Source of the DNA: a virus
Direction: 5' to 3' (one strand)
IMG/VR virus record: IMGVR_UViG_3300044712_000580
Coordinates: 1-35,919 of that record
Length of the DNA stretch: 35,919 bases
A program made the translations under genes and the position numbers. Positions 11,667-35,839 of this stretch are shown here, piece by piece; position 1 is the first letter of the stretch; each line of letters begins with the position of its first letter. Below the pieces are notes generated by a model, which worked only from the letters and a program-made list of their open reading frames with translations, ran no database searches and was not told where the DNA came from.

Positions 11667-12512
11667 CTATGAATTGCAAAAGTTTATAAATCCTTCAATA
11701 TCCGGTTCCGGCCTGTCATGGTTTAGCGGCCAAATGCTTAACCCTGCTTTTATCATCGTGCAAAGGTCACCAAGTGTATTAAAATAGTTGCTGCACCCTA
11801 CCTCGATATGCCCTGCAATTTTGCTACCAATAAACGGCAATCCCAAACTTTGTACCTCCATGCAAAGCATCGGGTAACCTTCACTTTTACTAAAACTTAC
11901 CACCATGCCAACGCCCTGCAGCACTTCCGGCAGGTTTAAAGACGGTTGCCGATATTCAATGTTTAACCTGTCACCTTTAATCTGCGTACCGTACCCACTA
12001 ACGCCTACAAATTGCTGTTCGGGCATCATTGCTGCTAATTGAATCAACTCACTGCCGCCCTTATTCTTATTGCAGTTCACCAAAGCTATCTTATTGCCGC
12101 CTGTTAGCGGATTTGCGCCCTTGTAACGGTTAATCGGGTGCAATACCATGTTCGGCAAGTCATAGGCAATAGAACGCCTTAAATGCTCCGCAACGTAAAC
12201 CATTTTCACGCCTTTTAAACGTAGTTCAGGGATAGTGTTATGTTGGATGCAAACCACATTTTTACCTTTCAATGGCAACCTTAAATATTGTTGCGGTCTG
12301 CAGGAAATTACGTCAGCCCATTTAATCAGTTTACCGGATTCTGAATAAGGCCTGATTGATACCCCATTCATGTTATCGGTTGCCGTCATTTGTGCTATTA
12401 TAACAGCATTATGCCCACGCCTTTGCAGCTCTTCGCAAAGTAGTTGATCGTACATATCAGCGCCGTTAATTCTGGCTGATACATGGGATGGTGTTATAAA
12501 AAGGAAATTCAT
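11667..12512 (-). CDS. GT4-like (GT-B fold) glycosyltransferase
   Basis: 281 aa from the ATG at 12512, chosen because it makes an ATGA overlap with the previous stop; an in-frame GTG lies two codons earlier. N-terminal MNFLFITPSHVSARINGADM with DQLLCEELQRRGHNAVII is the first Rossmann half. The C-terminal half has the retaining GT4 pattern SKSEGYPMLCMEVQSLGLP followed by FIGSKIAGH, where the E-x7-E region binds the nucleotide sugar. At 281 aa it is short for GT4 (usually 350-400), so the C-terminal helix may be reduced. Last gene of the glycosylation operon; acceptor unknown. Confidence 0.75.
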   Translation of the reverse strand: MNFLFITPSHVSARINGADMYDQLLCEELQRRGHNAVIIAQMTATDNMNGVSIRPYSESGKLIKWADVISCRPQQYLRLPLKGKNVVCIQHNTIPELRLKGVKMVYVAEHLRRSIAYDLPNMVLHPINRYKGANPLTGGNKIALVNCNKNKGGSELIQLAAMMPEQQFVGVSGYGTQIKGDRLNIEYRQPSLNLPEVLQGVGMVVSFSKSEGYPMLCMEVQSLGLPFIGSKIAGHIEVGCSNYFNTLGDLCTMIKAGLSIWPLNHDRPEPDIEGFINFCNS

Positions 12513-13126
12513 AAACACTTTTTTACCTGTTCAAAAACCCTTGCTACCCTGTTTGCATTTGCATCTCCACCAATCCAATTACTACCTTTTACGATGTGCA
12601 AAAAAGCACCTGCAAATACCTCATATTCGCCTTTTACCTCGTAACTCATTAGCCGTACCTGATTATAAACGCTGTGCAATTGCCCCGCCGTGTCCATCCC
12701 ATTACATGGCATAAAGTCAATGCAGCCAACGGATGTGCGGATAAACAGGCAGGCAGGATTTGGATAAAGCAGCCCTAAGCGTTCCTGGTTCGATGCAAAG
12801 AAAAATTTTCCGGCCATTTGTTCGGCAATATTTACAGGCTTAATCGGGAAACAATCATGGTCAAGTATGCCGATTATTTCATGGTCTTGCTTATTGAAAT
12901 TATAGGCAATGTTTAACGCGCAGGCGTGCGACTTACTGAAATCATTTGTGCCTACCTGCAAAAAGGTGTATTTGCAATCGTATTTTTCTGAAATCTCTTT
13001 GCAACCGTTGTTCCTGTTGCCGGTATTGACTACATGAATGCCATCCGGTTCAATGTTTTTTAAGATTAGCGGAATTTGTACGGCTAAGAAATCAGGCTTG
13101 TTGAAGTTTACAATTATGATTATCAT
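12509..13126 (-). CDS. GT-A fold glycosyltransferase-like protein
   Basis: 205 aa. Starts with MIIIIVNFNKPDFLAVQIPL, a typical GT2-type first strand, and has GILDHDCFPIKP (residues ~95-106), a D-x-D type metal/nucleotide-sugar motif (DHD). Shorter than usual GT2 domains (~240 aa). ATGA overlaps on both sides show translational coupling to the methyltransferase and the GT4-like enzyme. Confidence 0.65.
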   Translation of the reverse strand: MIIIIVNFNKPDFLAVQIPLILKNIEPDGIHVVNTGNRNNGCKEISEKYDCKYTFLQVGTNDFSKSHACALNIAYNFNKQDHEIIGILDHDCFPIKPVNIAEQMAGKFFFASNQERLGLLYPNPACLFIRTSVGCIDFMPCNGMDTAGQLHSVYNQVRLMSYEVKGEYEVFAGAFLHIVKGSNWIGGDANANRVARVFEQVKKCL

Positions 13127-13707
13127 TTGGCTTTCTTTGTTTTATGTTTCAAAAGTGCATATGCAATGCGCGTATCTATCACCCTGTAAAGGTAATAACC
13201 TTTCCCTATTCCGGCAACTATCCCGGCCATTACTTCGGGCATATCGCTGTCGTGCCACACAATCAGCTTAGCACCGCATTTAACGGCCTGTTTTGTTTCA
13301 TGTGTAACATTGGCTTCTGTGTGTTCGGCATCTATCCAATAGGCATCACAGGGGTATTGCGTGAAATCAAAGGTCATACTATCGCCGCGCAATTGCGTAA
13401 AAGGAAATTTGCAAAGGCTTCCTACCTTATCCCCGTGTCCTTCGTTAATCGGATGTTGCAGGCTTACATGGGCTAATTCTGTCGGCAGGTCTAAACTGTA
13501 CACTTTGGCGTTAGGTACGGCATTGCAAATTATGGACGTGCCGCGTCCTAAATTCGTTCCTACCTCAAATACACTTTTTGGCTGATGAATCCGCAACAGG
13601 CAGTGCAACACATGGTAATCTTCTCGGAATCCTGTAAATTCATTGTTTTCAATTGCGCCGGATAATAGTTCTTTGGTAACTATGTCGGAATAGGTTTGTT
13701 TAATCAT
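13123..13707 (-). CDS. Class I SAM-dependent methyltransferase (Methyltransf_24-like)
   Basis: 194 aa. Motif I VFEVGTNLGRGTSIICNAV, motif II acidic residue in KVYSLDLPTE, and DAYWIDAEHTEANVTHETKQ then AKLIVWHDSD, the D-H-x-Y-like pattern of methyltransferases that act on sugars or O-antigen. Embedded in the glycosyltransferase operon with ATGA overlaps on both sides, so the substrate is probably the glycan made by its neighbours. Confidence 0.8.
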   Translation of the reverse strand: MIKQTYSDIVTKELLSGAIENNEFTGFREDYHVLHCLLRIHQPKSVFEVGTNLGRGTSIICNAVPNAKVYSLDLPTELAHVSLQHPINEGHGDKVGSLCKFPFTQLRGDSMTFDFTQYPCDAYWIDAEHTEANVTHETKQAVKCGAKLIVWHDSDMPEVMAGIVAGIGKGYYLYRVIDTRIAYALLKHKTKKAK

Positions 13708-14393
13708 TTTTGATATTTTTTATGGTCTTTGCTGAGTGCAATTATTTTCGGCTGCAAATGGTCAATGCCCCATAATTTACGCTTTTCGGGTTCTTCAACC
13801 ATGCAGTAAGATGGGTCAAGTATTTTAAATACATTTTTATGGTAACCCTTCAACCTATTCCAATAACTTTCATCATGCCACCTTGCAACGGTTCCACGTT
13901 CAATATCTTCATCAATCATTGACTTTAAAGGCCTGAACCAACCAATGTAATCTGAACCGCCCTGAAATCCTCCAGCAATGTAGTTTTTTCTTTTACATTC
14001 CGGCATCCATGCGTTACAATTACGGTTTAATTCCCATCCGCCTCCGCCTTTAAAATAGCCAGGATGCTGAACGGCTACAAGTTTGCCAAAAATTTCATCA
14101 CCAACAGGCGCAACAAAACGCATGTCAGCATCGATGTAGTAAAGGTAATCATAGCCGGATAAATCCACCGCGCTCATTATGTGGTAACGCTTTAAAGTCA
14201 TTGCCGGCCACGGTTCGTGTTCAATTTCGTGAAAGGTTAAATTATGGTAAGCGGTTATAAAAAAGTTATTACTAAATACATGGTAATCAACCTCATGGCC
14301 TGCCAAAAAATAAGCCTCTGCACTTTCTAAAAGTGGTGGCACAAAATCAATATAGTTATTTGTCGCAATTATGCACAACGCTACCTTAGCCAT
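13704..14393 (-). CDS. GT6-family glycosyltransferase (histo-blood-group ABO / alpha-1,3-galactosyltransferase type)
   Basis: 229 aa. GT6 enzymes add alpha-1,3-linked Gal or GalNAc to a beta-galactoside and the ABO type requires a fucosylated (Fuc-alpha1,2-Gal) acceptor. Family signatures visible: YYIDADMRFVAPVGDEIFGK with DAD at 88-90, LVAVQHPGYF, YIAGGFQGGS (usual YYGGAFFGG), and ARWHDESYWN at 170-179 (usual A-x-WHDESHLN), then KILDPSYC. Catalytic glutamate of the family is the E in WHDE. Many bacterial GT6 proteins have NxN in place of DxD; this one has DxD, as recalled for a cyanophage homologue. Overlaps the fucosyltransferase fusion gene upstream by 13 bp. No TM anchor, so cytosolic. 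Confidence 0.85.
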   Translation of the reverse strand: MAKVALCIIATNNYIDFVPPLLESAEAYFLAGHEVDYHVFSNNFFITAYHNLTFHEIEHEPWPAMTLKRYHIMSAVDLSGYDYLYYIDADMRFVAPVGDEIFGKLVAVQHPGYFKGGGGWELNRNCNAWMPECKRKNYIAGGFQGGSDYIGWFRPLKSMIDEDIERGTVARWHDESYWNRLKGYHKNVFKILDPSYCMVEEPEKRKLWGIDHLQPKIIALSKDHKKYQK

Positions 14394-15868
14394 GTAAAAG
14401 TTTTTATGTGTTCTATAAATTGATCATCTGTCATCGCACATATCTGTTTCCAGTAGTATTGGTTCCTCGTTCCGTAATCATGCCGGAAAGTACTGTTTGT
14501 TCCCCTGTAATGGTTCATATGGAATAGTTGCCCGGGGACCCTTTCAACGGTTAAAAGCATATTGCAACGCCGCCACCGTTCCTGATCCTCAGCCCCCATG
14601 CTTACGAAGTTCTCATTTTCACCACCGATACCCAAATAGGATACTTTGTTAAATCCAACGCAACCACCGTAGCTGTTACGGTCTTCACGGCTTGCACCTA
14701 CTTTTGGGAACTGCTTACCTGCAAAGCCGCTTAAATCATTACCCATGTTCGGCAAATGTGACCTTTCAACCATGCAAAACCGGCCATCGTAGGGGTAAAC
14801 TACATCGGTTCCGCTGCGAAGCATATCAGCCATTTTAAGTAGCTGAAAGGGCGGGATTAATACGTCTGCATCATAATTGACGACATACGGTGTATTGGCC
14901 GCCTTTGTCATTTCATTGAGCGCTTTGGTTCGGTGGAATTGGCCACCAAAATCAAAGTGCATATAATCGGCAGGTATCTTGCTAAAACATTTGCTGTTAA
15001 TTTCGCCGACAATAATATTGGTGTGAAAATTCGTCTTTAAATATGCAATGACGGTTGCCAAATTATGCAGACGGTCTATATGGTCAAAACTTACCGGAAT
15101 GATAAACGTTACATCGCTCAAATTGGCTTTCTTAATTTCGCCTTGTTGCCAACCTTCAGGAAACAATGTTTTAGTACTGCACCTTTCGGATAATTTGCCA
15201 TCAAACCAAACAGGCGGGTAAACGGTAAATCCATTGGAAAGGTAAGCCGCCCACCATGCAAATGTGCTGTTGCTTATAATGTGAAAGCGGCAATTAATCA
15301 TGTTTATGAAGTCCTGCATTTCATCACCTTTCGGCAAAATATCGCCTTCATGATGCAGCCGGATAAATTCGTAATTGTCTGAAAATGCCTGAATTGGTGC
15401 AGGGTAAAAGTATTCTGAATAAATGCCTGCTGTATAGTCAACGGATAGCTGTTTGTAATTAGGATTATTCAGGTAATCGCCGCGCCGGTAATGAATGGCG
15501 ACTTTTGGAACGCTGCCGGGTTCCGCGCCTTTTGGGGTTAAATAACGCTTAATTTCACCCTCAAAACCTGCCCAGTATTTAGGGCATTGAAGGTAGCCAT
15601 AAAGATTTATCATGTGGCTGTTGCCATCTAAAAAGCGGCCAATCTTTTCATCATATTCAAAACACGATTCAACACGCCTAAAGCCATCGGACAATATTTC
15701 CCCAAACCATTCATCTGGAATATTAAAGTACTTCCGATATTTCCAATCAGAAGGGAAACGCGGTGTGTAACCGTGACGCAAAGCTAAACCGATTGTTGAA
15801 GCAATGGCAAAAATTTGGTTCCCTAATCGCCCGCCGTTGCCAATATTAGGCAGTTGTAGTATTTTCAT
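14381..15868 (-). CDS. Fusion: GT11 alpha-1,2-fucosyltransferase-like domain + GT-A glycosyltransferase domain
   Basis: 495 aa, two domains. Residues 1-~240: GT11 pattern with GGRLGNQIFAIAS (12-24), AIHYRRGDYLNN (124-135; HxRRGDY binds GDP-fucose) and IISNSTFAWWAAYL (197-210). Residues ~250-495: a GT-A domain starting DVTFIIPVSFDHIDRLHNL, with YVVNYDADVLIPP (DAD at 333-335), DRNSYGGCVGFNK and SMGAEDQERWRR, like the galactosyltransferase C-terminal region (E-D near the acceptor). One polypeptide could therefore add two sugars in sequence. First of five coupled genes, preceded by a 58-aa ORF that overlaps it by 23 bp. Confidence 0.82.
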   Translation of the reverse strand: MKILQLPNIGNGGRLGNQIFAIASTIGLALRHGYTPRFPSDWKYRKYFNIPDEWFGEILSDGFRRVESCFEYDEKIGRFLDGNSHMINLYGYLQCPKYWAGFEGEIKRYLTPKGAEPGSVPKVAIHYRRGDYLNNPNYKQLSVDYTAGIYSEYFYPAPIQAFSDNYEFIRLHHEGDILPKGDEMQDFINMINCRFHIISNSTFAWWAAYLSNGFTVYPPVWFDGKLSERCSTKTLFPEGWQQGEIKKANLSDVTFIIPVSFDHIDRLHNLATVIAYLKTNFHTNIIVGEINSKCFSKIPADYMHFDFGGQFHRTKALNEMTKAANTPYVVNYDADVLIPPFQLLKMADMLRSGTDVVYPYDGRFCMVERSHLPNMGNDLSGFAGKQFPKVGASREDRNSYGGCVGFNKVSYLGIGGENENFVSMGAEDQERWRRCNMLLTVERVPGQLFHMNHYRGTNSTFRHDYGTRNQYYWKQICAMTDDQFIEHIKTFTWLR

Positions 15869-16130: not shown

Positions 16131-16266
16131 TGACAGGGGCAGGATTCGAACCTGCATACCAGCTTTTTTGACTTTCCTAAATCAATCCACGGGCGTTAGT
16201 TGTCGGGTGCTACCTCGGCTAACTGCTGGTCAGTGGTCAAGCGTCTACCAATTCCGCCACCCTGTC
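16131..16266 (-). tRNA. tRNA-Leu-like gene with ~50-nt extra segment; anticodon not assigned
   Basis: Minus strand: acceptor GACAGGG (16266-16260) pairs with CCCTGTC (16138-16132), discriminator A, no CCA. D-arm GCGGAATTGGTAGACGC is typical of leucine tRNAs, and the T-arm GCAGG-TTCGAAT-CCTGC is perfect. Length is 136 nt against 80-90 for a class II tRNA. The excess lies where the anticodon arm should be: TTGAC follows the D-arm, and about 50 nt later TTGAT-TTAGGAAA-GTCAA could form an anticodon-type stem but with an eight-base loop. The extra part has its own 5-bp pairing (GTTAG/CTAAC). It could be an intron, an insertion or a decayed tRNA. Confidence 0.6.
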
Positions 16267-18849: not shown

Positions 18850-19401
18850 ATGACAAATTTACATGAAAATTGGTTACCAATTAATGGTTATTTAGGTGCT
18901 TATGAAGTAAGCGATTTAGGCAGGGTTAGAACTGTTGAAAGGTTTATTCCTAACCGTTACGGATTTAGAAGATTATCCCCAATAATAAGAAAGCAAAGAA
19001 AAGATAAGGGCGGCTATTTAATAGTTGACTTACGTTTTGATATGGGTATAGAATGTAAAAAAGTACATCGGCTTGTTGCTGAGGCATTTATTCCAAATCC
19101 AAAAAATCTTAAAGAGGTCAATCATATTGACCACAACAAAGAAAACAATTGTGTAAATAATTTGCAATGGGTTACGCGTTCTCAAAACGTAGCTCATACC
19201 GTTGAAAATAAAAAGCATTCATACGGTGAAAAACAATGGCAATCTATTTTAAAGGAATACCAAATTTTGGAAATAATTGAATTGAGAAAGTTAGGCAAAA
19301 CGCATAAACAAATAGCCGAAATTTACAACGTTTCACGCGGTACGATTACTTCCATATTTGTTGGCAGAAATTGGAAACACTTAACGCTTCCTTCTACTTA
19401 A
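18850..19401 (+). CDS. HNH homing endonuclease (NUMOD4 + HNH_3 + HTH)
   Basis: 183 aa. Residues 5-30 form a NUMOD4 domain (ENWLPINGYLGAYEVSDLGR). Residues ~70-115 form the HNH nuclease: VHRLVAEAFIPNPKN, VNHIDHNKENNCVNNLQWVT, RSQNVAHT. The C-terminus (ILEIIELRKLGKTHKQIAEI, YNVSRGTITSIF) is a helix-turn-helix for DNA recognition. Free-standing gene on the strand opposite to the late operon; its 3' end overlaps the MuF gene tail to tail by 21 bp. Such genes spread by cutting related phage genomes that lack them. Confidence 0.93.
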   Translation: MTNLHENWLPINGYLGAYEVSDLGRVRTVERFIPNRYGFRRLSPIIRKQRKDKGGYLIVDLRFDMGIECKKVHRLVAEAFIPNPKNLKEVNHIDHNKENNCVNNLQWVTRSQNVAHTVENKKHSYGEKQWQSILKEYQILEIIELRKLGKTHKQIAEIYNVSRGTITSIFVGRNWKHLTLPST

Positions 19402-26800: not shown

Positions 26801-27091
26801 ATGGAACAACTAACTATTGACTTTGGCCATCCAGCCCGCAAAACAGATCCGCAAACATCGCACATTGCTGCGGATATGATTAATTTCCGAAACAAGCATT
26901 TTGCCGTTATCTTGTACGTTCTTACCGAACCAATGGGCAAAGATGGCATTGCAAGGCTTACCGGATTAACAGGAACTCAGGTTGACCGCCGATTGCACGA
27001 AATGGCAAAGGCTGGATTGGTTGAATTGACAGGCAAAAAGGTATTGAGCGATGCAGGCAGGCCGGAAAGGGAATGGAGGAAAAAGTTATGA
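26801..27091 (+). CDS. Winged-helix-like DNA-binding protein
   Basis: 96 aa from the ATG at 26801. FAVILYVLTEPMGKDGIARL, TGLTGTQVDRRLHEMAKAGL and VELTGKKVLSDAGRPEREWR have the spacing of a winged helix (helix-turn-helix plus wing). Short N-terminal TIDFGHPARKTDPQTSHIAA is common in phage proteins of this kind. It overlaps the methyltransferase by ATGA, so the two are coupled; it may control or accompany the methyltransferase. Confidence 0.7.
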   Translation: MEQLTIDFGHPARKTDPQTSHIAADMINFRNKHFAVILYVLTEPMGKDGIARLTGLTGTQVDRRLHEMAKAGLVELTGKKVLSDAGRPEREWRKKL

Positions 27092-28194
27092 CACATGGCA
27101 GCTTATTTTCAGGCATTGGCGGCTTTGATTTAGCCTCTCAATGGATGGGATGGCAAAATCTGTTTCATTGTGAAATGAATCCTTTTGGGCAAAAGGTTTT
27201 GAACCACTATTGGCCGGATGCTGAATTATTTACCGATATTACAAAATCAGATTTTAAAAAGTATGCAAACCAAATTGATATTCTCACCGGAGGATTCCCC
27301 TGCCAGCCGTACAGCCACGCCGGAAAAAGACTTGGCAAAGAAGATGACCGCCACTTGTGGCCGGAAATGCTTAGAGCAATACGGGAAATTCAACCGACAT
27401 GGGTTGTGGGCGAAAACGTTAGCGGCCTTATTAGTTGGAATGGAGGGCTGGTATTCCACGAGGTGCAAACTGACTTGGAAGCTGAAGGGTACGAAGTATT
27501 CCCGGTTGTACTTCCAGCTTGCGCCGTCAACGCTCCCCACCGAAGGGATAGAATTTGGTTTATTGCCTACTCCGGATTGCAGCGACAGACGGAGCGACAA
27601 CAGCAGTCAATGGGGATTGAGCAACTACGCAAAGAACGGCCTATTATTAACACCAACGACCAGGGAAGAACCACAGGATTTGGAGGTATTCAAAAAGAGA
27701 ATGGAGAAATACCCGAATGGAACAACGATTCCGAATTTGGCAACGCAAGTAATGGGATTACTACCAACCCCGCAAGCAATAGACGGAAACGGCACGGGAA
27801 GGGAATTGAGATTGAAAAAGGATTGCAACCGGAACCCGAATCAGCCGGGAAGTTGGAGGGGGGATTTGAAGGATTATGCAGTGCATGGGATGTTGCCGAC
27901 ACCGGCAACCAGGGATTACAAAGGGGCAAGGTCAACGGAAGCATTACAGGAATCAGGCAGGAACCACACAAACAGCCTGCCGGATTCATTCCATCAACCT
28001 GGCAAAACTTCCCAACTCAACCCTCGGTTTGTGGCCGAAATGATGGGGTTCCCGCCGGATTGGTTGGAATTACCGTTTCAAAGCACCGAAACGAAAGCAT
28101 AAAGGCTTATGGTAATGCAATAGTTCCGCAGGTAGCTTTACAAATTTTTAAAGCAATACAGCAAATGGAAAATAATTTTGCCAATCTCACCTAA
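27088..28194 (+). CDS. DNA cytosine-5 methyltransferase
   Basis: 368 aa from the ATG at 27088 (ATGA overlap; an in-frame ATG at 27073 is possible). Motif I SLFSGIGGFDLA (5-16), motif IV GGFPCQPYSHAG with catalytic Cys72, motif VI GENV (108-111), motif VIII HRRDR (151-155), motif X SIKAYGNAIVPQVALQIFKA at the C-terminus. The region between ~165 and 300 is low-complexity and polar (target-recognition region), which is where a second frame is also open. No cognate restriction enzyme is present, so it is an orphan enzyme, probably protecting phage DNA. Confidence 0.95.
   Translation: MTHGSLFSGIGGFDLASQWMGWQNLFHCEMNPFGQKVLNHYWPDAELFTDITKSDFKKYANQIDILTGGFPCQPYSHAGKRLGKEDDRHLWPEMLRAIREIQPTWVVGENVSGLISWNGGLVFHEVQTDLEAEGYEVFPVVLPACAVNAPHRRDRIWFIAYSGLQRQTERQQQSMGIEQLRKERPIINTNDQGRTTGFGGIQKENGEIPEWNNDSEFGNASNGITTNPASNRRKRHGKGIEIEKGLQPEPESAGKLEGGFEGLCSAWDVADTGNQGLQRGKVNGSITGIRQEPHKQPAGFIPSTWQNFPTQPSVCGRNDGVPAGLVGITVSKHRNESIKAYGNAIVPQVALQIFKAIQQMENNFANLT
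27263..28102 (+). CDS. Overlapping ORF inside the methyltransferase gene, conserved-looking LLPTP / LNPRFV protein
   Basis: 279 aa from the ATG at 27263 (an earlier ATG at 27218). Read in the +1 frame relative to the methyltransferase. It is not random: RCKLTWKLKGTKYSRLYFQL, three LLPTP/MLPTP units each with a following D or R-D (FGLLPTPDCSDRR, MGLLPTPQAIDGNG, HGMLPTPATRDYKG) and a C-terminal LNPRFVAEMMGFPPDWLELP. As I recall, LLPTPxAxD and LNPxFVxxMMGFPxxW occur together in phage proteins annotated near or within Dcm-type genes. So both frames probably encode protein. Function unknown. Confidence 0.6.
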   Translation: MQTKLIFSPEDSPASRTATPEKDLAKKMTATCGRKCLEQYGKFNRHGLWAKTLAALLVGMEGWYSTRCKLTWKLKGTKYSRLYFQLAPSTLPTEGIEFGLLPTPDCSDRRSDNSSQWGLSNYAKNGLLLTPTTREEPQDLEVFKKRMEKYPNGTTIPNLATQVMGLLPTPQAIDGNGTGRELRLKKDCNRNPNQPGSWRGDLKDYAVHGMLPTPATRDYKGARSTEALQESGRNHTNSLPDSFHQPGKTSQLNPRFVAEMMGFPPDWLELPFQSTETKA

Positions 28195-30031: not shown

Positions 30032-30463
30032 ATGGTAAACTACAGAGATTACGACTACATAATCGGCATTGACCCCGGCGTAAATACAGGGTTTGCCGTT
30101 TGGGATAGGTTGGATAAAAAGTTAATCAAAGTCAAAACGCTAACAGCAGTACAGGCCGAAGAAATGGTTAAGCGTGATTTTTTGGCTTTAGATGCAAAAA
30201 TTTTAGTCCGCTTTGAAGATGCCCGCCTTCGCCATTGGTTCGGTAAAGCAGGCCGCGAACAGTTGCAGGGAGCCGGATCAATTAAAAGGGATTGCCAGCG
30301 GTGGGAGGAGTTTCTAACGTACTACGATATTCCTTTTGAGGAAGTATCCCCAAAAAACAACCGGACAAAAATGTCAGCTGAGGAATTTAAGCGATTGACC
30401 GGATGGAATGAAAGATGCAGCGAACACGCGCGGGACGCGGCTATGTTATGTTTTGGATTGTAA
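30032..30463 (+). CDS. RuvC-like Holliday-junction resolvase
   Basis: 143 aa, RNase H fold. Catalytic pattern: GIDPGVNTGFAVWD (first Asp, residue 14), VRFEDARLRHWFGK (Glu), KRDCQRWEEFLTYYDIPFEE and C-terminal CSEHARDAAMLCFGL (last acidic pair). Length fits phage RuvC proteins (~140-170 aa). Resolves branched DNA before packaging; works with the ERF protein. Immediately upstream of the cassette region. Confidence 0.88.
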   Translation: MVNYRDYDYIIGIDPGVNTGFAVWDRLDKKLIKVKTLTAVQAEEMVKRDFLALDAKILVRFEDARLRHWFGKAGREQLQGAGSIKRDCQRWEEFLTYYDIPFEEVSPKNNRTKMSAEEFKRLTGWNERCSEHARDAAMLCFGL

Positions 30464-30609: not shown

Positions 30610-30921
30610 ATGCTTAGATATTTAACCACCTACTCATCCGGGAAAGTTATTGCTCAAAAACCGGATTTACCTGAACCGCTTGATTTTGTAAAAGAGGCGG
30701 CAATTAATCCTGTTCCAAAAAAATGTGGATGGTGCATAAAAAGCGGCCCAGGCAATGAAATTAGCACGATTAAAGGCGTTGTAATTGCAAGGCATTTGAA
30801 CGGCGATCCTTTTCATTCGATACGATTCGATAATCGTACAAAGCGAAATGAGGCCGTTTATTACCTGCAAAATCGTTACAGGAATATGCAGTTTATAATT
30901 TGTGTTGAGTTTGATGATTAA
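30610..30921 (+). CDS. Hypothetical protein at the left edge of the cassette array
   Basis: 103 aa, KKCGWCIKSGPGNEISTIKG, VVIARHLNGDPFHSIRFDNR; the C-G-W-C pair might bind metal. Its stop codon TAA (30919-30921) lies within the first attC-like core GATTAAC, as is common for cassette genes. However, no matching TTAATC core was found at a plausible upstream position, so it is either a cassette that has lost its left end or a resident gene beside the insertion point. Confidence 0.6.
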   Translation: MLRYLTTYSSGKVIAQKPDLPEPLDFVKEAAINPVPKKCGWCIKSGPGNEISTIKGVVIARHLNGDPFHSIRFDNRTKRNEAVYYLQNRYRNMQFIICVEFDD

Positions 30922-30970
30922 CGTTTTGCAGATTGGCGGTCGTTTTAATGCCGCCAATGTTCTGTTATGT
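30916..30970 (+). other. attC: attC-like site 0 (left boundary of array)
   Basis: 55 bp. Left core GATTAAC (30916-30922), right core GTTATGT (30964-30970). Between them ATTGGCGG (30932-30939) and CCGCCAAT (30951-30958) form a perfect 8-bp arm, and CAG/CTG (30929-30931, 30962-30964) extend it with unpaired bases, as in attC L-boxes. The left core does not match any upstream right core, unlike the other sites. Confidence 0.75.
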
Positions 30971-31002
30971 GATGGGCTTTTATTAACTGAAAATAAATCA
31001 TT

Positions 31003-31272
31003 ATGAATAAATCAATAGAAATAAAACATTTTAGTCTGATAGACTACAACATTCTCTTAAAAGTTGTTGCTGAATATGTGAAGCAATATCAAATAAGTAG
31101 AGATAAATTTGAATATGAGAGAAATATGTTTGACTTGAACGATACTTTATATTCTTTACAATGTCATAAACACGCAGTAAGTATTGAAATAGAAAATCAT
31201 TGGAAGGTTTTTTGGGTAAAAGTAAAAGAAACTAATACCAAGTATAAATTTGAAATATGGTACGCTTCTTAG
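31003..31272 (+). CDS. Cassette 1 protein, unknown function
   Basis: 89 aa. Starts 38 bp after the cassette junction. Helical and aromatic-rich (KHFSLIDYNILLKVVAEYVK, FDLNDTLYSLQCHKHAVSIE, NHWKVFWVKVKETNTKYKFE). No known family. AT-rich compared with the early phage genes. Lacks its own promoter as far as can be seen. Confidence 0.6.
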   Translation: MNKSIEIKHFSLIDYNILLKVVAEYVKQYQISRDKFEYERNMFDLNDTLYSLQCHKHAVSIEIENHWKVFWVKVKETNTKYKFEIWYAS

Positions 31273-31278
31273 CATATC

Positions 31279-31411
31279 ACATAACGTAAAAAACATTGGC
31301 GTACGGGCGGAAATCGGAGTGCATCCGCCCGTAAACGCACCGAAGTAAAATAATGCACTCCCGTTGAGCGTCAGGACAAAAGCCCGCCTTACGCCAATGT
31401 AATTGTTGGGC
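31279..31411 (+). other. attC: attC-like site of cassette 1
   Basis: 133 bp. Left core ACATAAC (31279-31285), right core GTTGGGC (31405-31411). Outer arms ACATTGGCGT (31293-31302) and ACGCCAATGT (31391-31400) are perfect 10-bp complements. Inner secondary pairing ACGGGCGG/CCGCCCGT (31303-31310, 31325-31332) and GGAGTGCAT/ATGCACTCC. Left core pairs with the start of its own cassette (TTATGTGAT), not with its right core. Confidence 0.9.
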
Positions 31412-31422
31412 GCATCATCATT

Positions 31423-31641
31423 ATGGATTTACTAAGAATAAAACACACCTACATCGTTGAATTGAAAAGCAGTCATGCAATGATGGATGATGAGATTTGC
31501 AAATTACATGAATTGTATAATGGCAAATTTTATAAGGAAAAATCGAATGGGCGTTTGTCATTATTTAATACCCAAACCGCCTTAAAATTGATTTTAGAAA
31601 TGAATTTATCCTTTACAAAATCACCGGATTCTGACTTTTAA
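31423..31641 (+). CDS. Cassette 2 protein, unknown function
   Basis: 72 aa, 17 bp after the junction. RIKHTYIVELKSSHAMMDDE, ICKLHELYNGKFYKEKSNGR. Small alpha/beta protein of no recognised family. The stop lies 4 bp before the left core of its attC. Confidence 0.6.
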   Translation: MDLLRIKHTYIVELKSSHAMMDDEICKLHELYNGKFYKEKSNGRLSLFNTQTALKLILEMNLSFTKSPDSDF

Positions 31642-31645
31642 TTGC

Positions 31646-31718
31646 GCCCAACGGTATGCAGCTTGGCGCAGTTTGCGTTGGCTTGTGGGAAGGGAATTGC
31701 GCTAAGGTGCTGTTAGGT
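31646..31718 (+). other. attC: attC-like site of cassette 2
   Basis: 73 bp, the shortest complete site. Left core GCCCAAC (31646-31652), right core GTTAGGT (31712-31718). CAGCTTGGCGCA near 31659-31671 pairs imperfectly with TGCGCTAAGGTGCTG. Cores differ (GCCCAAC against ACCTAAC expected for the right one), consistent with neighbours from different cassettes. Confidence 0.85.
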
Positions 31719-31765
31719 GTCTGGTTTTAAAAATAAAAAAGCGTAGGAATTTAAAATAAAAATAT

Positions 31766-32092
31766 ATGTACGAAGAAAAATACCAACAGGCAATTGATAA
31801 ACTAAAAGAAGTTTACCCTCAATTTAAAGATGTGAAGTTTGATATTAGCAATGGAGAACTTGGATATATTAGTGGTGCTTGGAGTTTAGTTGAGCAAATT
31901 AATATAAACGATTTGCAACAATTTGTAAACTCTTTTTTAGGGCAAAAAGTTTATAGAGCAGAATACATTGGATATATTGATGTATATGCCCGTTCAGAAG
32001 ATGAAGCGAAAGAGTTTACAAATGATATTAAACCGAAATGCTCAAGGATAAAAGTAACTGAAACGGACTTAAAAACGGTAAACTTTTATTGA
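31766..32092 (+). CDS. Cassette 3 protein, unknown function
   Basis: 108 aa, 53 bp after the junction. Acidic-start helical sequence (YEEKYQQAIDKLKEVYPQFK), DISNGELGYISGAWSLVEQ, then EYIGYIDVYARSEDEAKEFT. The GYIDVYARSEDEA part resembles short ferredoxin-like units but no family is certain. The gene is followed by its own terminator inside the cassette. Confidence 0.6.
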   Translation: MYEEKYQQAIDKLKEVYPQFKDVKFDISNGELGYISGAWSLVEQININDLQQFVNSFLGQKVYRAEYIGYIDVYARSEDEAKEFTNDIKPKCSRIKVTETDLKTVNFY

Positions 32093-32094
32093 GT

Positions 32095-32120
32095 AACCCG
32101 TGCGGTGGGTTTTTATTTTT
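32095..32120 (+). terminator. Terminator inside cassette 3
   Basis: AACCC (32095-32099), loop, GGGTT (32107-32111), then TTTATTTTT. A weak 5-bp stem with a good T-run, placed between the gene stop and the attC. It may limit transcription into cassettes 4-7 unless they carry promoters. Confidence 0.6.
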
Positions 32121-32129
32121 AAAACTTGC

Positions 32130-32209
32130 ACCTAACGGAAAAGGTATTTGCGCATGGCCGCATTGAAGACCGAGTCAATAGGCGGCTTGCGCAAATACAA
32201 TTGTTGGGC
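32130..32209 (+). other. attC: attC-like site of cassette 3
   Basis: 80 bp. Left core ACCTAAC (32130-32136), right core GTTGGGC (32203-32209). Arms GTATTTGCGCA (32144-32154) and TGCGCAAATAC (32188-32198) are perfect 11-bp complements around a 33-base centre. Left core complements the cassette start TTAGGTG. Confidence 0.9.
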
Positions 32210-32263
32210 GTCTGGCCTTTATTAAACTACTCCAAAGATTCGATAACTTAAAAATAAAAAACA

Positions 32264-32692
32264 ATGAGAAACACAAAATTTAGGGGCAAAGTTTTCCATT
32301 ACGGTCGTGATTGCGGATGGGTATTTGGCGATTTTTACCGATACTACAATGGCAACCTGAACTACACTATTGCCACCTTGGGCGAATTTGAAACCAAAGA
32401 ATATTCCGTTGAGATTTCAACCGTCGGGCAATGGACTGGCCTGCATGACAAAAACGGAAAAGAAATTTATGAAGGGGATATAGTTAAGCATGACGCATGG
32501 GACTACCCGTTCACTGTAATTTTTGACCAACAAAAGGCGAGGTTTGTTTGCCAATTGAAAACAGGGTTAACAAATCATATTCATTGCGAAGGGATTCAAG
32601 TTGTTGGTAACATATTTGATAATCCAGATTTGGTTTTCAAAACAATGGTTGAGCAATCAAAAGGAATATCAAGTACAGATGATTTTTCATAG
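32264..32692 (+). CDS. Cassette 4: YopX-family phage protein
   Basis: 142 aa. Hallmarks of YopX: N-terminal KFRGKVFHYGRDCGWVFGDF and the conserved TVGQWTGLHDKNGKEIYEGD followed by IVKHD, then VVGNIFDNPDL. YopX proteins are common phage cargo of unknown function. Its presence in a cassette suggests the cassette pool also samples phage genes. Starts 60 bp after the junction; stop 6 bp before the left core. Confidence 0.88.
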   Translation: MRNTKFRGKVFHYGRDCGWVFGDFYRYYNGNLNYTIATLGEFETKEYSVEISTVGQWTGLHDKNGKEIYEGDIVKHDAWDYPFTVIFDQQKARFVCQLKTGLTNHIHCEGIQVVGNIFDNPDLVFKTMVEQSKGISSTDDFS

Positions 32693-32698
32693 GCTTGC

Positions 32699-32829
32699 GC
32701 CCAACGTGAGGACATTGGCGAAGGCGGGATATTCTGGTACGTCCGCACAGCCTTGCAGAAATGCTAAATAGTAGTACCACTTTGAGCATATAGCGCACCG
32801 CCCCGCTTACGCCAATGTAATTGTTGGGC
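32699..32829 (+). other. attC: attC-like site of cassette 4
   Basis: 131 bp. Left core GCCCAAC (32699-32705), right core GTTGGGC (32823-32829). Arms ACATTGGCG (32712-32720) and CGCCAATGT (32810-32818). Same outer arms and same AATTGTTGGGCGCAT right end as the site of cassette 1, so these two come from one attC lineage. Here both cores match each other as well, so it would be a complete, high-quality attC. Confidence 0.9.
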
Positions 32830-32839
32830 GCATAATCTT

Positions 32840-32947
32840 ATGATTGAACAAAATGCAGAAGCAATGTTTTGGATTGGACTTGTAAGTGGCCTTATATGGG
32901 GATATATTATTTGGCACAAAAACGAAATAAAAAGCAAAAATCTATGA
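32840..32947 (+). CDS. Cassette 5, first gene: 35-aa membrane peptide
   Basis: 35 aa, MIEQNAEAMFWIGLVSGLIW onward, with one TM segment (AMFWIGLVSGLIWGYIIW) and a charged tail (KNEIKSKNL). Starts 16 bp after the junction. Its TGA overlaps the next ATG (ATGA), so the cassette is a coupled two-gene unit. Confidence 0.6.
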   Translation: MIEQNAEAMFWIGLVSGLIWGYIIWHKNEIKSKNL

Positions 32948-33150
32948 AATTTTTTGACAGTTTCGGGAATGAAGTAACGGCAGGAAGCCATATAAAGATT
33001 ATACGGTCATACAATTATCAGCATTGGAATGGTCAAGATGCAGAAGTTGTTTGGGATGAAAAACATGGTCAGTATCAGTTTATTTTTTTTGACAGCCAAT
33101 CAAAAACTGCACATGATTTTTGGGGCATACACCAATTTAAAGTCATCTAA
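32944..33150 (+). CDS. Cassette 5, second gene, unknown function
   Basis: 68 aa from the ATG at 32944, preferred over an in-frame start at 32869 because of the ATGA coupling. MKFFDSFGNEVTAGSHIKII then DAEVVWDEKHGQYQFIFFDS: a small beta-barrel-like protein resembling SH3-type or KOW-like folds by feel. With the membrane peptide it suggests a membrane-linked pair, perhaps a defence or toxin-type unit; unproven. Confidence 0.6.
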   Translation: MKFFDSFGNEVTAGSHIKIIRSYNYQHWNGQDAEVVWDEKHGQYQFIFFDSQSKTAHDFWGIHQFKVI

Positions 33151-33154
33151 TTGC

Positions 33155-33288
33155 GCCCAACGTTATCGCATAGGCGTTTGTGGTGGAATTTGGAAAGCTA
33201 CTGCATCCAACCTATGTGAAGCTAAATAGATAAATGAAGTTAAATTACTTAATCTGTCCTCCAACATACCGCCTATGCAGTGTTGTAG
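33155..33288 (+). other. attC: attC-like site of cassette 5
   Basis: 134 bp. Left core GCCCAAC (33155-33161), right core GTTGTAG (33282-33288), which departs from GTTRRRY but is matched exactly by the next left core. Arms GCATAGGCG (33168-33176) and CGCCTATGC (33270-33278), perfect 9 bp. Confidence 0.88.
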
Positions 33289-33310
33289 GTATGGCTTTAA
33301 AAGTCAAATT

Positions 33311-33586
33311 ATGAGTAAACCAATAGCAATAATTGGAGCAGGTCAAGACAAGGGTGCAATAGCGGCAGCACTTGCAGAACAAGGTCATAACGATGTAATA
33401 ATTATGACACTAGACGAAGCGAAAGAATATGCCAATAACCCCTTTAAGGGGGCAACAGATGTTTATAAAATAGAAGCACCACCAATATTAAAATACGTTG
33501 ATGGAAAAGAATTTATCTGTAAAGGGGAACACCAATACAGGCAAGTTGAAGAAAAATGGATTTGTCAATGTGGTAGGGTCTTATAG
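33311..33586 (+). CDS. Cassette 6 protein: Rossmann-like N-terminus with C-terminal Cys/His tail
   Basis: 91 aa from the ATG at 33311; a start at 33275 lies inside the preceding attC and is rejected. KPIAIIGAGQDKGAIAAALA is a glycine-rich nucleotide-binding-like start (GxGxxxG), but the fold is too short for a full Rossmann domain. The C-terminus ICKGEHQYRQVEEKWICQCG has C-x3-H and C-x-C that could bind zinc. Function unknown. Confidence 0.6.
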   Translation: MSKPIAIIGAGQDKGAIAAALAEQGHNDVIIMTLDEAKEYANNPFKGATDVYKIEAPPILKYVDGKEFICKGEHQYRQVEEKWICQCGRVL

Positions 33587-33592
33587 CCTTAC

Positions 33593-33686
33593 CTACAACG
33601 TTGAAGCATTTGTGTCAGGCGGGCATAAATGCAACTTAATATTAACCGCAAGCTGTCCGCCCGCTTGCACAAATGCAGTGTTAGCT
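33593..33686 (+). other. attC: attC-like site of cassette 6
   Basis: 94 bp. Left core CTACAAC (33593-33599), right core GTTAGCT (33680-33686). Arms GCATTTGTG (33606-33614) and CACAAATGC (33668-33676), with GGCGGGC/GCCCGC pairing further in. TACCTACAA before the core complements the cassette start TTGTAGGTA. Confidence 0.88.
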
Positions 33687-33696
33687 GCCGTTTTAT

Positions 33697-33915
33697 ATGT
33701 ACGTAAACGAAAAAGAATTTGATGCTGTCCACGCTGCTATTGATTTTATCACAAGTCATTCAGACGGAGCAGATGATGATAAATATCCACACGATATTAT
33801 TGAAGGGTTGCAAAGCCTTTTTCATAAAATCAAAAATGATAGAGAACGAAAACACTTTAAATATTTGGTTAAAAAAGAATTGGTTAAACTTAGGGCTGTC
33901 AAAAATGGCAGCTAA
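33697..33915 (+). CDS. Cassette 7 protein, unknown function
   Basis: 72 aa, MYVNEKEFDAVHAAIDFITS onward, all-helical and charged (HKIKNDRERKHFKYLVKKEL). 16 bp after the junction. The stop TAA is inside the left core of the truncated attC. Last cassette before the convergent lysis genes. Confidence 0.6.
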   Translation: MYVNEKEFDAVHAAIDFITSHSDGADDDKYPHDIIEGLQSLFHKIKNDRERKHFKYLVKKELVKLRAVKNGS

Positions 33916-33947
33916 CGGCAGGCATATTGCGAAGTGCGAAAGGCTAA
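33910..33947 (+). other. attC: Truncated attC-like site of cassette 7 (right boundary)
   Basis: Left core AGCTAAC (33910-33916), preceded by GG so that GGCAGCTAA complements the cassette start TTAGCTGCC. Only about 31 more bases follow before the convergent gene (stop at 33948); no right arm or GTTRRRY is found. The site was probably cut by the event that joined the array to the lysis region. Confidence 0.75.
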
Positions 33948-34481
33948 CTAAATTTTTAGTTTATCTTTCACTTTTCCCCACAATTTCAAACCCGAATAAA
34001 CCAAAATAGCTGAAAGTAAAGAAAACGCAATTAAAGCCTGTTTCCCGCGCTTTTTGGCTTTTGCTTTATACTTTGCTATTATTTTATTTGAAACGTCTAT
34101 TTCGGCCTGATAGGCGGCAATTCGGGCAGTATTTTCAATGTATTGCCTTACCGTGTCAGTTTTTCTGATGGTTATAGTTTTGTTTATGATGCGGTCACGA
34201 TTTACATACCTGATAATTTCCTGACCTTCTTTAATTACCGTAACTGTGTCAACCCCGTAGTTATAGGTTACTAAGGTGTCATGTACTGGCAAACCTTCGA
34301 TGAAGGTAGTATCTGTTTTAACCGGAAATTTATCTGCGCAATCGGCTGCAAACTGATCCGAATGTTTGTACTTTTCAACTGCCTTGCAACCTGATAAGCC
34401 CAAAATAATTGAACCGATTAAAACGGATGTTAATACCATTCCGATTATTCGGATGGTTACGGCAATAGCTTCATTTTTCAT
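33948..34481 (-). CDS. Unimolecular-spanin-like lipoprotein with C-terminal TM
   Basis: 177 aa from the ATG at 34481. N-terminal hydrophobic segment ending in IILGLSGCKA, a lipobox with Cys near residue 32, then a charged beta/coiled linker (ITIRKTDTVRQYIENTARIA, AYQAEIDVSNKIIAKYKAKA) and a C-terminal TM (ALIAFSLLSAILVYSGLKLW). A lipoprotein signal at one end and a TM at the other is the plan of u-spanins, which span the periplasm and fuse the membranes at lysis. Next to a holin-like gene. The call is from topology only. Confidence 0.65.
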   Translation of the reverse strand: MKNEAIAVTIRIIGMVLTSVLIGSIILGLSGCKAVEKYKHSDQFAADCADKFPVKTDTTFIEGLPVHDTLVTYNYGVDTVTVIKEGQEIIRYVNRDRIINKTITIRKTDTVRQYIENTARIAAYQAEIDVSNKIIAKYKAKAKKRGKQALIAFSLLSAILVYSGLKLWGKVKDKLKI

Positions 34482-34533
34482 AATATAGTTTTGTTTCAAC
34501 ACCAATCAAATTGGAGTATAATTGGCAGGCCTT

Positions 34534-34746
34534 TCATTTGTTTGATTGCTCTTTATTAATACCATAGGCAGTATCATTCGGGTTAAGGTAGCGAATAATT
34601 ACCGGAATCATGGAAGCAACCCCCGCCTGCATAATGTGACGGAGGCTGTCTAAATTTAGCGCAAATAAATCTGCACCCAAATCCATGAATTTTATTAATA
34701 CTGCGACAAGGAAAACCCTTCCCCATGATGCAAACATTTTACTCAT
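34534..34746 (-). CDS. Holin-like protein
   Basis: 70 aa. Two hydrophobic stretches, WGRVFLVAVLIKFMDLGADL and MQAGVASMIPVIIRYLNPND, with a polar C-terminus (TAYGINKEQSNK). The pattern AGVA...P-V-I-I-R-Y-L-N-P-N-D is common in phage holin-annotated proteins. Its ATG overlaps the stop of the DUF1508 gene (ATGA). Predicted to permeabilise the inner membrane at lysis. Confidence 0.7.
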   Translation of the reverse strand: MSKMFASWGRVFLVAVLIKFMDLGADLFALNLDSLRHIMQAGVASMIPVIIRYLNPNDTAYGINKEQSNK

Positions 34747-34904
34747 AAAAATACTATTTCAAAATTAAACAATTTAGCCGTTTTTATTGCGCCTTTCCTG
34801 CTTTTATACCCTTCGCTTTGCGCTATGATTTTACCATTTTTAGCCAAAATACGAAAATACCAATTTGCAGCAGAAAGGCCGGAACGGAAGATTTGAATTT
34901 TCAT
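34743..34904 (-). CDS. DUF1508 (YegP-like) single-repeat protein
   Basis: 53 aa, MKIQIFRSGLSAANWYFRIL then AKNGKIIAQSEGYKSRKGAI. W-Y-F-R-x-x-A-x-N-G-K-I-I-A-x-S-E-G-Y-K-S is the DUF1508 repeat. Bacterial YegP usually has two repeats; this has one. ATGA overlaps with both neighbours. Role in a lysis-type operon unknown. Confidence 0.8.
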   Translation of the reverse strand: MKIQIFRSGLSAANWYFRILAKNGKIIAQSEGYKSRKGAIKTAKLFNFEIVFL

Positions 34905-35098
34905 TGCTTAATCGGTTTGCCTGTTTTGCAGTCATATAATTCAATCGTACCATCCGCCATAATTCGAATGCAAGGCAGTCGGTCGAACTCCTCAGGATTT
35001 TCGAGTAGTTCAATTTGCGCATTATAATCGGTTACAATCCTGTTGTAATCGTGTGCATCCTGAACGTTCATACGCGGTTTATCCAATTTTTTACTCAT
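34901..35098 (-). CDS. Hypothetical protein in lysis-type operon
   Basis: 65 aa, KLDKPRMNVQDAHDYNRIVT, DYNAQIELLENPEEFDRLP, IRIMADGTIELYDC. A helical first half and a beta hairpin at the end. No family recognised. Coupled to the DUF1508 gene by ATGA. Confidence 0.6.
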   Translation of the reverse strand: MSKKLDKPRMNVQDAHDYNRIVTDYNAQIELLENPEEFDRLPCIRIMADGTIELYDCKTGKPIKQ

Positions 35099-35099
35099 G

Positions 35100-35354
35100 T
35101 TATTTGCTTAAAAAGTATTCAATAATTTTCACGATTACAGCCCCTCCAATGCCACCGGCACCAAAGAAAACCCATAATTTGGCGGCTGCTGAATTTTCGA
35201 GTTTAGATAGCCTTGCTTCAACATTTTCCAACCGCCCCTTATATCCTTGCCCGTTGAATTTATCGCCCACCAAAGCCGCCTCCAGGCGCTCCAATGTTTG
35301 TTCGATTTTGTCCAACCTGATATTTATTTCCATATTGTTGCCGCCGTTTTGCAT
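35100..35354 (-). CDS. Coiled-coil plus C-terminal TM protein (XhlA/holin-accessory type)
   Basis: 84 aa (an internal ATG at 35333 gives 77 aa). MEINIRLDKIEQTLERLEAA with RLENVEARLSKLENSAAAKL is a coiled coil; WVFFGAGGIGGAVIVKIIEY is a TM segment. This is the plan of XhlA-type haemolysin/holin-accessory proteins. Separated from the next gene by 1 bp. Confidence 0.65.
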   Translation of the reverse strand: MQNGGNNMEINIRLDKIEQTLERLEAALVGDKFNGQGYKGRLENVEARLSKLENSAAAKLWVFFGAGGIGGAVIVKIIEYFLSK

Positions 35355-35380
35355 AGTGTAACAATAATTTTTTTAGTTAG

Positions 35381-35839
35381 TCAATCCTTCCATTTCCCCG
35401 GCCTTAATCCAGCCTGAATTATCAATTGATTAATTGTAGCATTTACCGCCCCTGTGCCACGCTGTGCAATCATTTTGTAAAAATCAATCTCACTCATGAA
35501 CGGCCCCGGATGCCCTGTGGTGTCAATTATTTGCCCGGTAAGGTCAACGTAAGTATTCGCATCCGCTATTTGGTAGCGAACCTCATCCTGCCGCCCGTAA
35601 AATTCAAGCTCATCCCCATTCTTAATATAACTGACTTTCCACATTATATGAAGCTGTTGGCTTTCGAGGTTATAGGAAAAGCCAATAAACCGCGCCTGCC
35701 TGCTAATTCCGTTTTTTGGTGTCAATGGTATAACTATTGCGCTGTCATACTTTAACAGCCTTGCATCTGTTGTGTCCTGTGTAAGCTGTGCTTTTGCACC
35801 AAAACCAATAAAGAGTAAAAGGATAAGTGTGTATTTCAT
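35381..35839 (-). CDS. Secreted protein, unknown function
   Basis: 152 aa. Signal peptide MKYTLILLLFIGFGAKAQ followed by a soluble part with QARFIGFSYNLESQQLHIMW, KNGDELEFYGRQDEVRYQIA and GHPGPFMSEIDFYKMIAQRG. On the circle it starts 1 bp after the tail-fibre stop, so it is part of the tail operon. Its first 47 bases are also present at the start of the window (1-47) because of the terminal overlap. Function unknown. Confidence 0.65.
   Translation of the reverse strand: MKYTLILLLFIGFGAKAQLTQDTTDARLLKYDSAIVIPLTPKNGISRQARFIGFSYNLESQQLHIMWKVSYIKNGDELEFYGRQDEVRYQIADANTYVDLTGQIIDTTGHPGPFMSEIDFYKMIAQRGTGAVNATINQLIIQAGLRPGKWKD

Follow-up and report, generated by a model that had tools for sequence, protein, structure and literature searches.

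The viral genome described here, IMG/VR record IMGVR_UViG_3300044712_000580, is analyzed over its whole length of 35,919 b, referred to below as the window. It carries a seven-site integron-type array, confirming what a first-pass annotation of the DNA had noticed. Seven complete attC-like hairpin sites are located within 2.8 kb, at positions 30916-33686, and the array lies at the end of a rightward gene block, facing a convergent block of small genes. The array is probably a phage-borne, integron-type cluster of attC sites lacking an integrase (CALIN), mobilized in trans by an IntI-type recombinase. Its parts are listed below, where R1 denotes a covariance model built from the seven window sites.

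30916..30970, minus strand: attC-like site a0, 55 b, which belongs to the unit of the gene at 31003-31272 (R1 40.4 bits; site used in building R1)
31003..31272, plus strand: cassette gene 1, no family found
31279..31411, minus strand: attC-like site a1, 133 b (hairpin and end match, R1)
31423..31641, plus strand: cassette gene 2, with a weak winged-helix-like match (E 0.0023, under the Pfam cut-off)
31646..31718, minus strand: attC-like site a2, 73 b, the weakest fold (hairpin and end match, folding, R1)
31766..32092, plus strand: cassette gene 3, no family found; no plasmid match
32130..32209, minus strand: attC-like site a3, 80 b, the best fold, z -4.7 (hairpin and end match, folding, R1)
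32264..32692, plus strand: cassette gene 4, YopX family (PF09643, E 9.7e-17, over the cut-off)
32699..32829, minus strand: attC-like site a4, 131 b (hairpin and end match, R1)
32944..33150, plus strand: cassette gene 5, with a longer TTG-start reading from 32869
33155..33288, minus strand: attC-like site a5, 134 b (hairpin and end match, R1)
33314..33586, plus strand: cassette gene 6, with weak nucleotide-binding-like matches under the cut-off; no phage match
33593..33686, minus strand: attC-like site a6, 94 b (hairpin and end match, R1)
33697..33915, plus strand: cassette gene 7, no family found
33907..33947, minus strand: half site with core AAC^G and a 10-b end match to unit 7, without a partner arm

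A chain finder that links hairpins whose ends match over at least 8 b recovered seven sites and six links in the window. Dinucleotide shuffles of the window gave at most one link (24 shuffles, none in 18 and one in 6; 120 shuffles, none in 114 and one in 6), in agreement with the first-pass claim of an integron-type cassette array. At slightly looser settings the finder was also applied to three phages for which integrons or CALINs have been published, and it returned 6, 3, and 10 sites; of these 19 control sites, one in the Shewanella record and one in the Vibrio record are doubtful. The start of each unit, over 8 to 10 b from GTT, was the reverse complement of the unit's own AAC end in all seven units, a rule that the first-pass annotation had stated for 6 to 9 bases (runs of 10, 10, 8, 8, 10, 10, and 10 b for units 1 to 7). 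The unit ends therefore match across the gene, which is a circle scar. End matches to foreign sites extended over 3 to 5 b, except among three units with a common GCCCAAC. The sites have attC cores (RYYYAAC / GTTRRRY) and paired inner boxes, several of the cores departing from RYYY (scores of 5 to 8 out of 8). Seven nearby sites were counted by our own scanner, by the chain finder, and by R1, which was built from them; the threshold for a CALIN, at least two nearby attC sites, is the IntegronFinder 2.0 default. The integron integrase family TIGR02249 had no match in the window record, as expected from the first-pass observation that an integrase is lacking. With no intI in the window, and an attI present at most as the half site, the array is not a complete integron, and the arrangement of a classical gene cassette, in which the attC comes after its gene and in the sense orientation, was not found.

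Single-stranded DNA folding of the bottom strands gave z scores of -2.1 to -4.7 for six of the seven sites. The inner (L-box) helix was 95% paired, with double changes in six of nine pairs. The outer core helix was less paired (75.5%), as expected if neighboring units bring differing cores. Some but not all measures of covariation beat the shuffles: of 500 partner shuffles, 2 reached the covariation score, 30 the count of doubly changed pairs, and 217 that of pair types. The G+C content of the cassette open reading frames (ORFs) was 26 to 39%, compared to 41.7% for the phage. In some units, the inverted repeats at the unit ends extended well beyond the core, examples being one of 16 b (31724-31739 / 32110-32125) and one of 19 b (33282-33300 / 33581-33599).

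In cultured Flavobacterium phages from the Baltic, whole units of an attC site plus a gene are present, absent, or moved from phage to phage, with breakpoints at AAC^. The array stretch of morran9-1 was matched by 46 Flavobacterium records, some being RefSeq duplicates and some matching over just 17%, and 14 Baltic phages were fetched for the comparison. One conserved flank directly followed the AAC core in all 14. Their arrays were resolved into 22 unit families, some of which, such as one of 1,623 b, may be composite. Neighboring units were mainly flush, apart from gaps of 8 b and 28 b next to variant units and from stretches outside the unit library, which measured 506 b (mumin9-2 and filifjonk9-1), 961 b (mymlan6-1), and 1,214 b (tooticki6-1). 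The last units belonged to five families across 13 phages, and that of tooticki6-1 was left unassigned. Over 5.8 and 4.6 kb, the phages sniff9-1 and sniff9-2 were 100% identical, the difference between them being one 439-b unit; mumin9-2 differed from mumin6-3 by 506 b. Unit C13 was located mid-array in morran9-1, lillamy9-1, and sniff9-1 and was the last unit, adjoining the conserved flank, in lillamy9-7; it was not mapped in the ten others. Excision followed by re-insertion at an attI-like site would give such a pattern.

Each of the two-phage indels left the downstream site intact and had ATAACG or TAACGTT as its shared bases, located in the core next to the gene. Comparisons with the same left unit agreed for 0 to 4 b past AAC^ (14/14), and those with the same right unit agreed for 4 to 12 b up to AAC^ (18/18), with variant "same" units diverging after 2 to 4 b or 26 b in 3 of the 18 and likewise in 2 of the 14. 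These comparisons are distinct but share phages and are thus not independent. Breakpoints at AAC^ indicate that each unit comprises a site together with its downstream gene, and with such units the seven genes of the window have seven complete sites. The first-pass annotation had assumed a crossover at the other core and classical polarity, an assumption that the boundaries at the gene-proximal AAC^ in the relatives do not support. It had also described a repeat after each gene, which is correct for six of the seven; the last gene is followed by the half site (33916), and a 55-b complete site stands before the first gene.

When read in the gene sense, the window sites were AACG...TGTT in 7/7 cases, whereas AACA came first in 19/19 control chain sites. 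Among 93 R1 hits, counted after duplicates of one record were dropped, 83 read AACA...CGTT on the model strand. Relative to the flanking ORFs, 65 of 74 viral hits were opposite (5 same, 4 unscorable), and 13 of 19 plasmid hits were same (5 opposite, 1 unscorable); this scoring is crude, and the window site 33593-33686 itself comes out as "same." The set replaces an earlier one of 80 hand-picked hits, which had given viral counts of 59 opposite, 3 same, and 4 unscorable (n = 66) and plasmid counts of 10, 3, and 1 (n = 14). Judged from the orientation of these ORFs, the phage cassette genes run against classical attC polarity (65/70 scorable hits in the phage set). The reversed polarity explains why the window has a complete site ahead of its first gene and a half site behind its last one.

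By its terminase relatives, the window phage is placed among the Bacteroidota phages, the host group that the first-pass annotation had named. The closest terminase of a named phage was that of Flavobacterium phage 11b (51% identity). The landmarks around the array are as follows.

30032..30463, plus strand: RuvC-like Holliday junction resolvase gene, the left landmark (phrog_1770, E 2.8e-24)
30610..30921, plus strand: resident phage gene, with its stop codon inside the core of the first site (tblastn 44% and 43%, in L083 and L084)
33948..35839, minus strand: convergent block of small genes, the right landmark, in which 35100-35354 has homologues in L083 and L084

In the viral loci L083 and L084, the order of the resolvase, the 30610-30921 homologue, and the 35100-35354 homologue is kept. 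The spacing between the latter two is 1.3 to 1.4 kb in these loci versus 4.2 kb in the window, and neither locus had an R1 match at E up to 1 or any chain link. The L084 record, which is also that of L002, was the closest relative found by terminase (77%). L003, with a terminase at 73%, has an array of five complete sites and a half site (locus L180), situated between a resolvase remnant and a convergent block and holding genes that differ from those of the window. The comparison of relatives for variable cassettes, suggested by the first-pass annotation, thus turned out as it had anticipated, both here and in the Baltic phages. A first scanner had reported no convincing cluster in L002-L164, overlooking the L003 array that R1 then detected. 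An R1 search of genome record G003, which is L003, gave no match, and the silence of that search is weak evidence. The relatives scan with the 35100-35354 protein likewise gave none, although homologues exist in L083 and L084, and the gene at 30610-30921 had no phage match in the phage search. The location between replication and lysis genes given in the first-pass annotation was upheld on the upstream side, by the resolvase-like gene, and not on the downstream side, where the five ORFs at 33948-35839 had no PHROG match at E 0.01.

R1 was scanned over 1.5 Mb from 165 sources, of which two were named phages and 163 were viral loci (L002 and L084 belong to the same record). With E values of up to 2 accepted, it matched four sites in L003, one in L103 that adjoins a cytosine methylase gene, and one in Polaribacter phage P12002L, and weakly two in phage 11b and one in L026. 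The chain finder gave four sites and three links in phage 11b; this four-site chain (L178:2103-3057) is located beside the terminase genes, in a stretch annotated as hypothetical genes. A 17-b pattern from an L180 site was present in 29 viral contigs. R1 sites at E up to 0.1 were found in 21 of 28 such contigs (L200, the L003 record, was left out), and chains of two or more links in 9 of the 29; one match per contig follows from the selection by pattern, but additional sites do not. When one site was searched by blastn, it matched seven phage records, all of Flavobacterium (22 to 34 b, E 1e-3 to 0.5), and nine plasmids, four from Riemerella/Myroides over 81 to 97% of the query and the others, three from Empedobacter and two cyanobacterial ones, over 25 to 47 b. 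R1 also scored sites in the fetched Flavobacterium phages (14/14 Baltic ones) and in Flavobacteriia plasmids but none of the 19 control chain sites; one weak control match (12 bits, E 2.3) lay elsewhere. Together, these matches suggest to us that the sites form a taxon-specific Bacteroidota attC family. In the Riemerella/Myroides plasmids (L223-L226), family sites stand beside aadS, blaMYO-1, blaOXA-347, and erm(F), mainly in classical polarity. The exact site pattern was present in 0 viral and 0 genome contigs. A looser pattern was present in 0 viral and 4 genome contigs (Oscillospiraceae, Idiomarina, Bacillota, and Gammaproteobacteria), with one match each, and these were taken as chance.

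In the proposed mechanism, the window array would be a CALIN of Bacteroidota-type attC sites that closes the rightward gene block of the phage. A single attC with a single gene behind it would form the mobile unit, crossing over at AAC^ in the core nearest the gene; the genes would thus run against the classical attC polarity and be transcribed as part of the phage operon. An IntI-type recombinase from the host or from a co-infecting element may act on the folded strand, by which the window's own array would move, and cargo such as methyltransferases may help the phages against restriction. IntI1 recombined phage-borne attC sites in five of six published tests, according to the accessible text of PMC9892861.

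Several observations weigh against this mechanism. No integron integrase over the family cut-off was found in 30 records including the window (Bacteroidota chromosomes were outside this search), and 11 Baltic records gave no integron integrase match at E 0.001; the supply of the recombinase in trans is accordingly an inference. The same search did detect one integrase above the cut-off elsewhere, in a bacterial genome unrelated to these records. In the part of the IntegronFinder 2.0 source available, one complete Bacteroidetes integron is named, that of Salinibacter ruber, and an earlier survey had just cassette-less integrases. No cassettes were common to any two phages of the window lineage, where gain and loss take the form of differing or absent arrays. 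The bottom strand of site a2 folds weakly (z -0.87), so that the folding check put forward in the first-pass annotation succeeded for six sites and was weak for this one. Since R1 scored 0/19 control chain sites, attC membership is assigned by architecture and not by a shared covariance score or by IntegronFinder/HattCI. Finally, the half site had a best stem score of 6, compared to 8 or more for the seven complete sites, and may be an attI-like end or, as it looks like the left arm of other attC sites, a truncated attC.

The most plausible of the other explanations, though an unlikely one, is that a block of host cassettes was captured once by illegitimate recombination and is now immobile in the window phage. 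The lack of an integrase in the window and the half site at the right end are consistent with such a static remnant, as is the array relative L180, which has no cassette found in common with the window. On the other hand, L180 has a differing array at the same locus, L083 and L084 have none, and turnover was seen in the sister (Baltic) systems. It is less likely still that the same anatomy is moved by another enzyme, a Xer-like or other Bacteroidota-specific tyrosine recombinase. The reversed gene polarity and the taxon-specific site family would fit this explanation. Weaker tyrosine-recombinase matches were obtained in two array phages, and G029 has a Xer-like 273-aa tyrosine recombinase gene (L217:11855-12676, minus strand), directly after a methyltransferase gene and 1.1 kb from the nearest R1 hit. 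The match of this gene skips positions 180-237 of the integron-family model, and 14/14 control genomes also gave below-cut-off matches in the same family search, so weak matches say little. The attC architecture, with AACA...CGTT cores in most R1 hits, speaks against another enzyme, and by family search the window and 11 Baltic phages were without such a gene, the weak matches being uninformative.

Homologous recombination or strand annealing between phages at the repeated hairpins, without a site-specific enzyme, is improbable. The window does encode an Erf-like annealing protein, the hairpins are repeated, and existing units could spread via homologous exchange. However, in 32/32 neighbor comparisons the break falls no more than a few bases from AAC^ (0 to 4 b or 4 to 12 b shared) and not in the longer similar stems, and one unit was relocated whole to the conserved end. 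That the repeats act as terminators or are inverted repeats formed by chance, as hairpins between co-directional genes and a site a2 that folds no better than many shuffles might suggest, is scarcely credible given the unit-specific end matches and the whole-unit turnover in the sisters and is ruled out for the whole array by six links against at most one in the shuffles.

The proteins of the window cassettes were mostly without a family, apart from the YopX-like one. The YopX genes were also the sole matches of the array DNA to phages and plasmids, and the matches from PADLOC were all weak (best E 0.0063). In the Baltic phages, several units encode methyltransferases by annotation. Unit C6, which by position holds a methyltransferase gene, was present in 6/6 fetched LMO6 isolates and 4/8 LMO9 isolates and was absent from morran9-1 and lillamy9-1. 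LMO9 phages without one specific methyltransferase plate 3 to 4 orders lower on LMO6, according to the accessible text of PMC7077304, and the distribution of C6 fits its being that methyltransferase. As a tentative extension, Bacteroidota phages may keep a cassette system of their own, with a landing site, a reverse-polarity pool rich in methyltransferases, and a recombinase acting in trans, by which virulent phages could swap anti-restriction genes singly and so alter their plating.

The first-pass annotation had put forward the phage as a mobile vehicle for cassettes, which is not in itself a novelty, integrase-less phage arrays having already been published (Qi et al. 2023, PMC9892861). As in the present array, the phage CALINs described in the accessible text of that study are attC clusters that lack an integrase, and they carry methyltransferase cargo. 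The phages that bear them are virulent, and Polaribacter phage P12002L, with two published sites, is one of them. They differ in that the main text, as far as accessible, names neither Flavobacterium nor phage 11b, with arrays such as three attC in TJE1; its accessible sections describe no unit turnover between sister phages, no reversed gene polarity, and no conserved end of the array. The control arrays of chromosomal and plasmid integrons (Shewanella M16-3 and Vibrio p16) share the attC hairpins and, by the same program, the cassette-end rule with the window. In contrast to it, they carry intI, have the AACA core first in the gene sense, and were unscored by R1. The Baltic Lillamyvirus and Muminvirus phages (PMC7077304) have the same attC family and methyltransferase-bearing arrays at a phage locus but belong to other phage genera than the window phage; the words integron, cassette, and attC have 0 occurrences in the accessible main text. 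The Flavobacteriia plasmid resistance regions (Riemerella, Myroides) have sites scored by R1, but their genes are mostly in classical polarity. Among titles and abstract openings, no report of such arrays in Flavobacterium phages was found, with preprints and most subscription journals outside the search. Phage CALINs are thus known, while the Bacteroidota attC family, the reversed polarity, and the whole-unit turnover at AAC^ look new.

The published phage arrays are finds for which recombination was shown with cloned sites. To these, the sister phages add turnover of entire units that is resolved to the base and comes from virulent phage-host pairs in culture, so that cassette exchange by phages can be tested directly. 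If the reversed polarity is general, the phage cassette pool would be separate from that of the plasmid resistance cassettes.

The remainder of the window has the makeup of a tailed phage, as indicated by matches of its proteins to terminase, portal, capsid, protease, and tape-measure proteins, and we read it as being of the siphovirus type. The Erf-like protein, a cytosine methylase, and the RuvC-like resolvase are encoded on the other strand. The sole match in an Rfam search of the window was a tRNA-like one outside the array, at 16131-16266 on the minus strand (37.3 bits over 136 b), for which ARAGORN makes no call; it may be an insert-bearing tRNA or a spurious match. Five ORFs on the minus strand between the tail and head genes (11667-15868) look by eye like glycosyltransferase or methyltransferase genes. 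An ORF at 18850-19401, located inside the head gene block but on the opposite (plus) strand, resembles the HNH homing endonucleases of P12002L. In the cytosine methylase (27073-28194), 50 aa are 96% identical to L083:13593-13742, which is located at a different place, while the other proteins common to the window and the L083 relative share 44 to 64% identity. The methylase stretch shared with L083 was perhaps acquired by a recent separate transfer.

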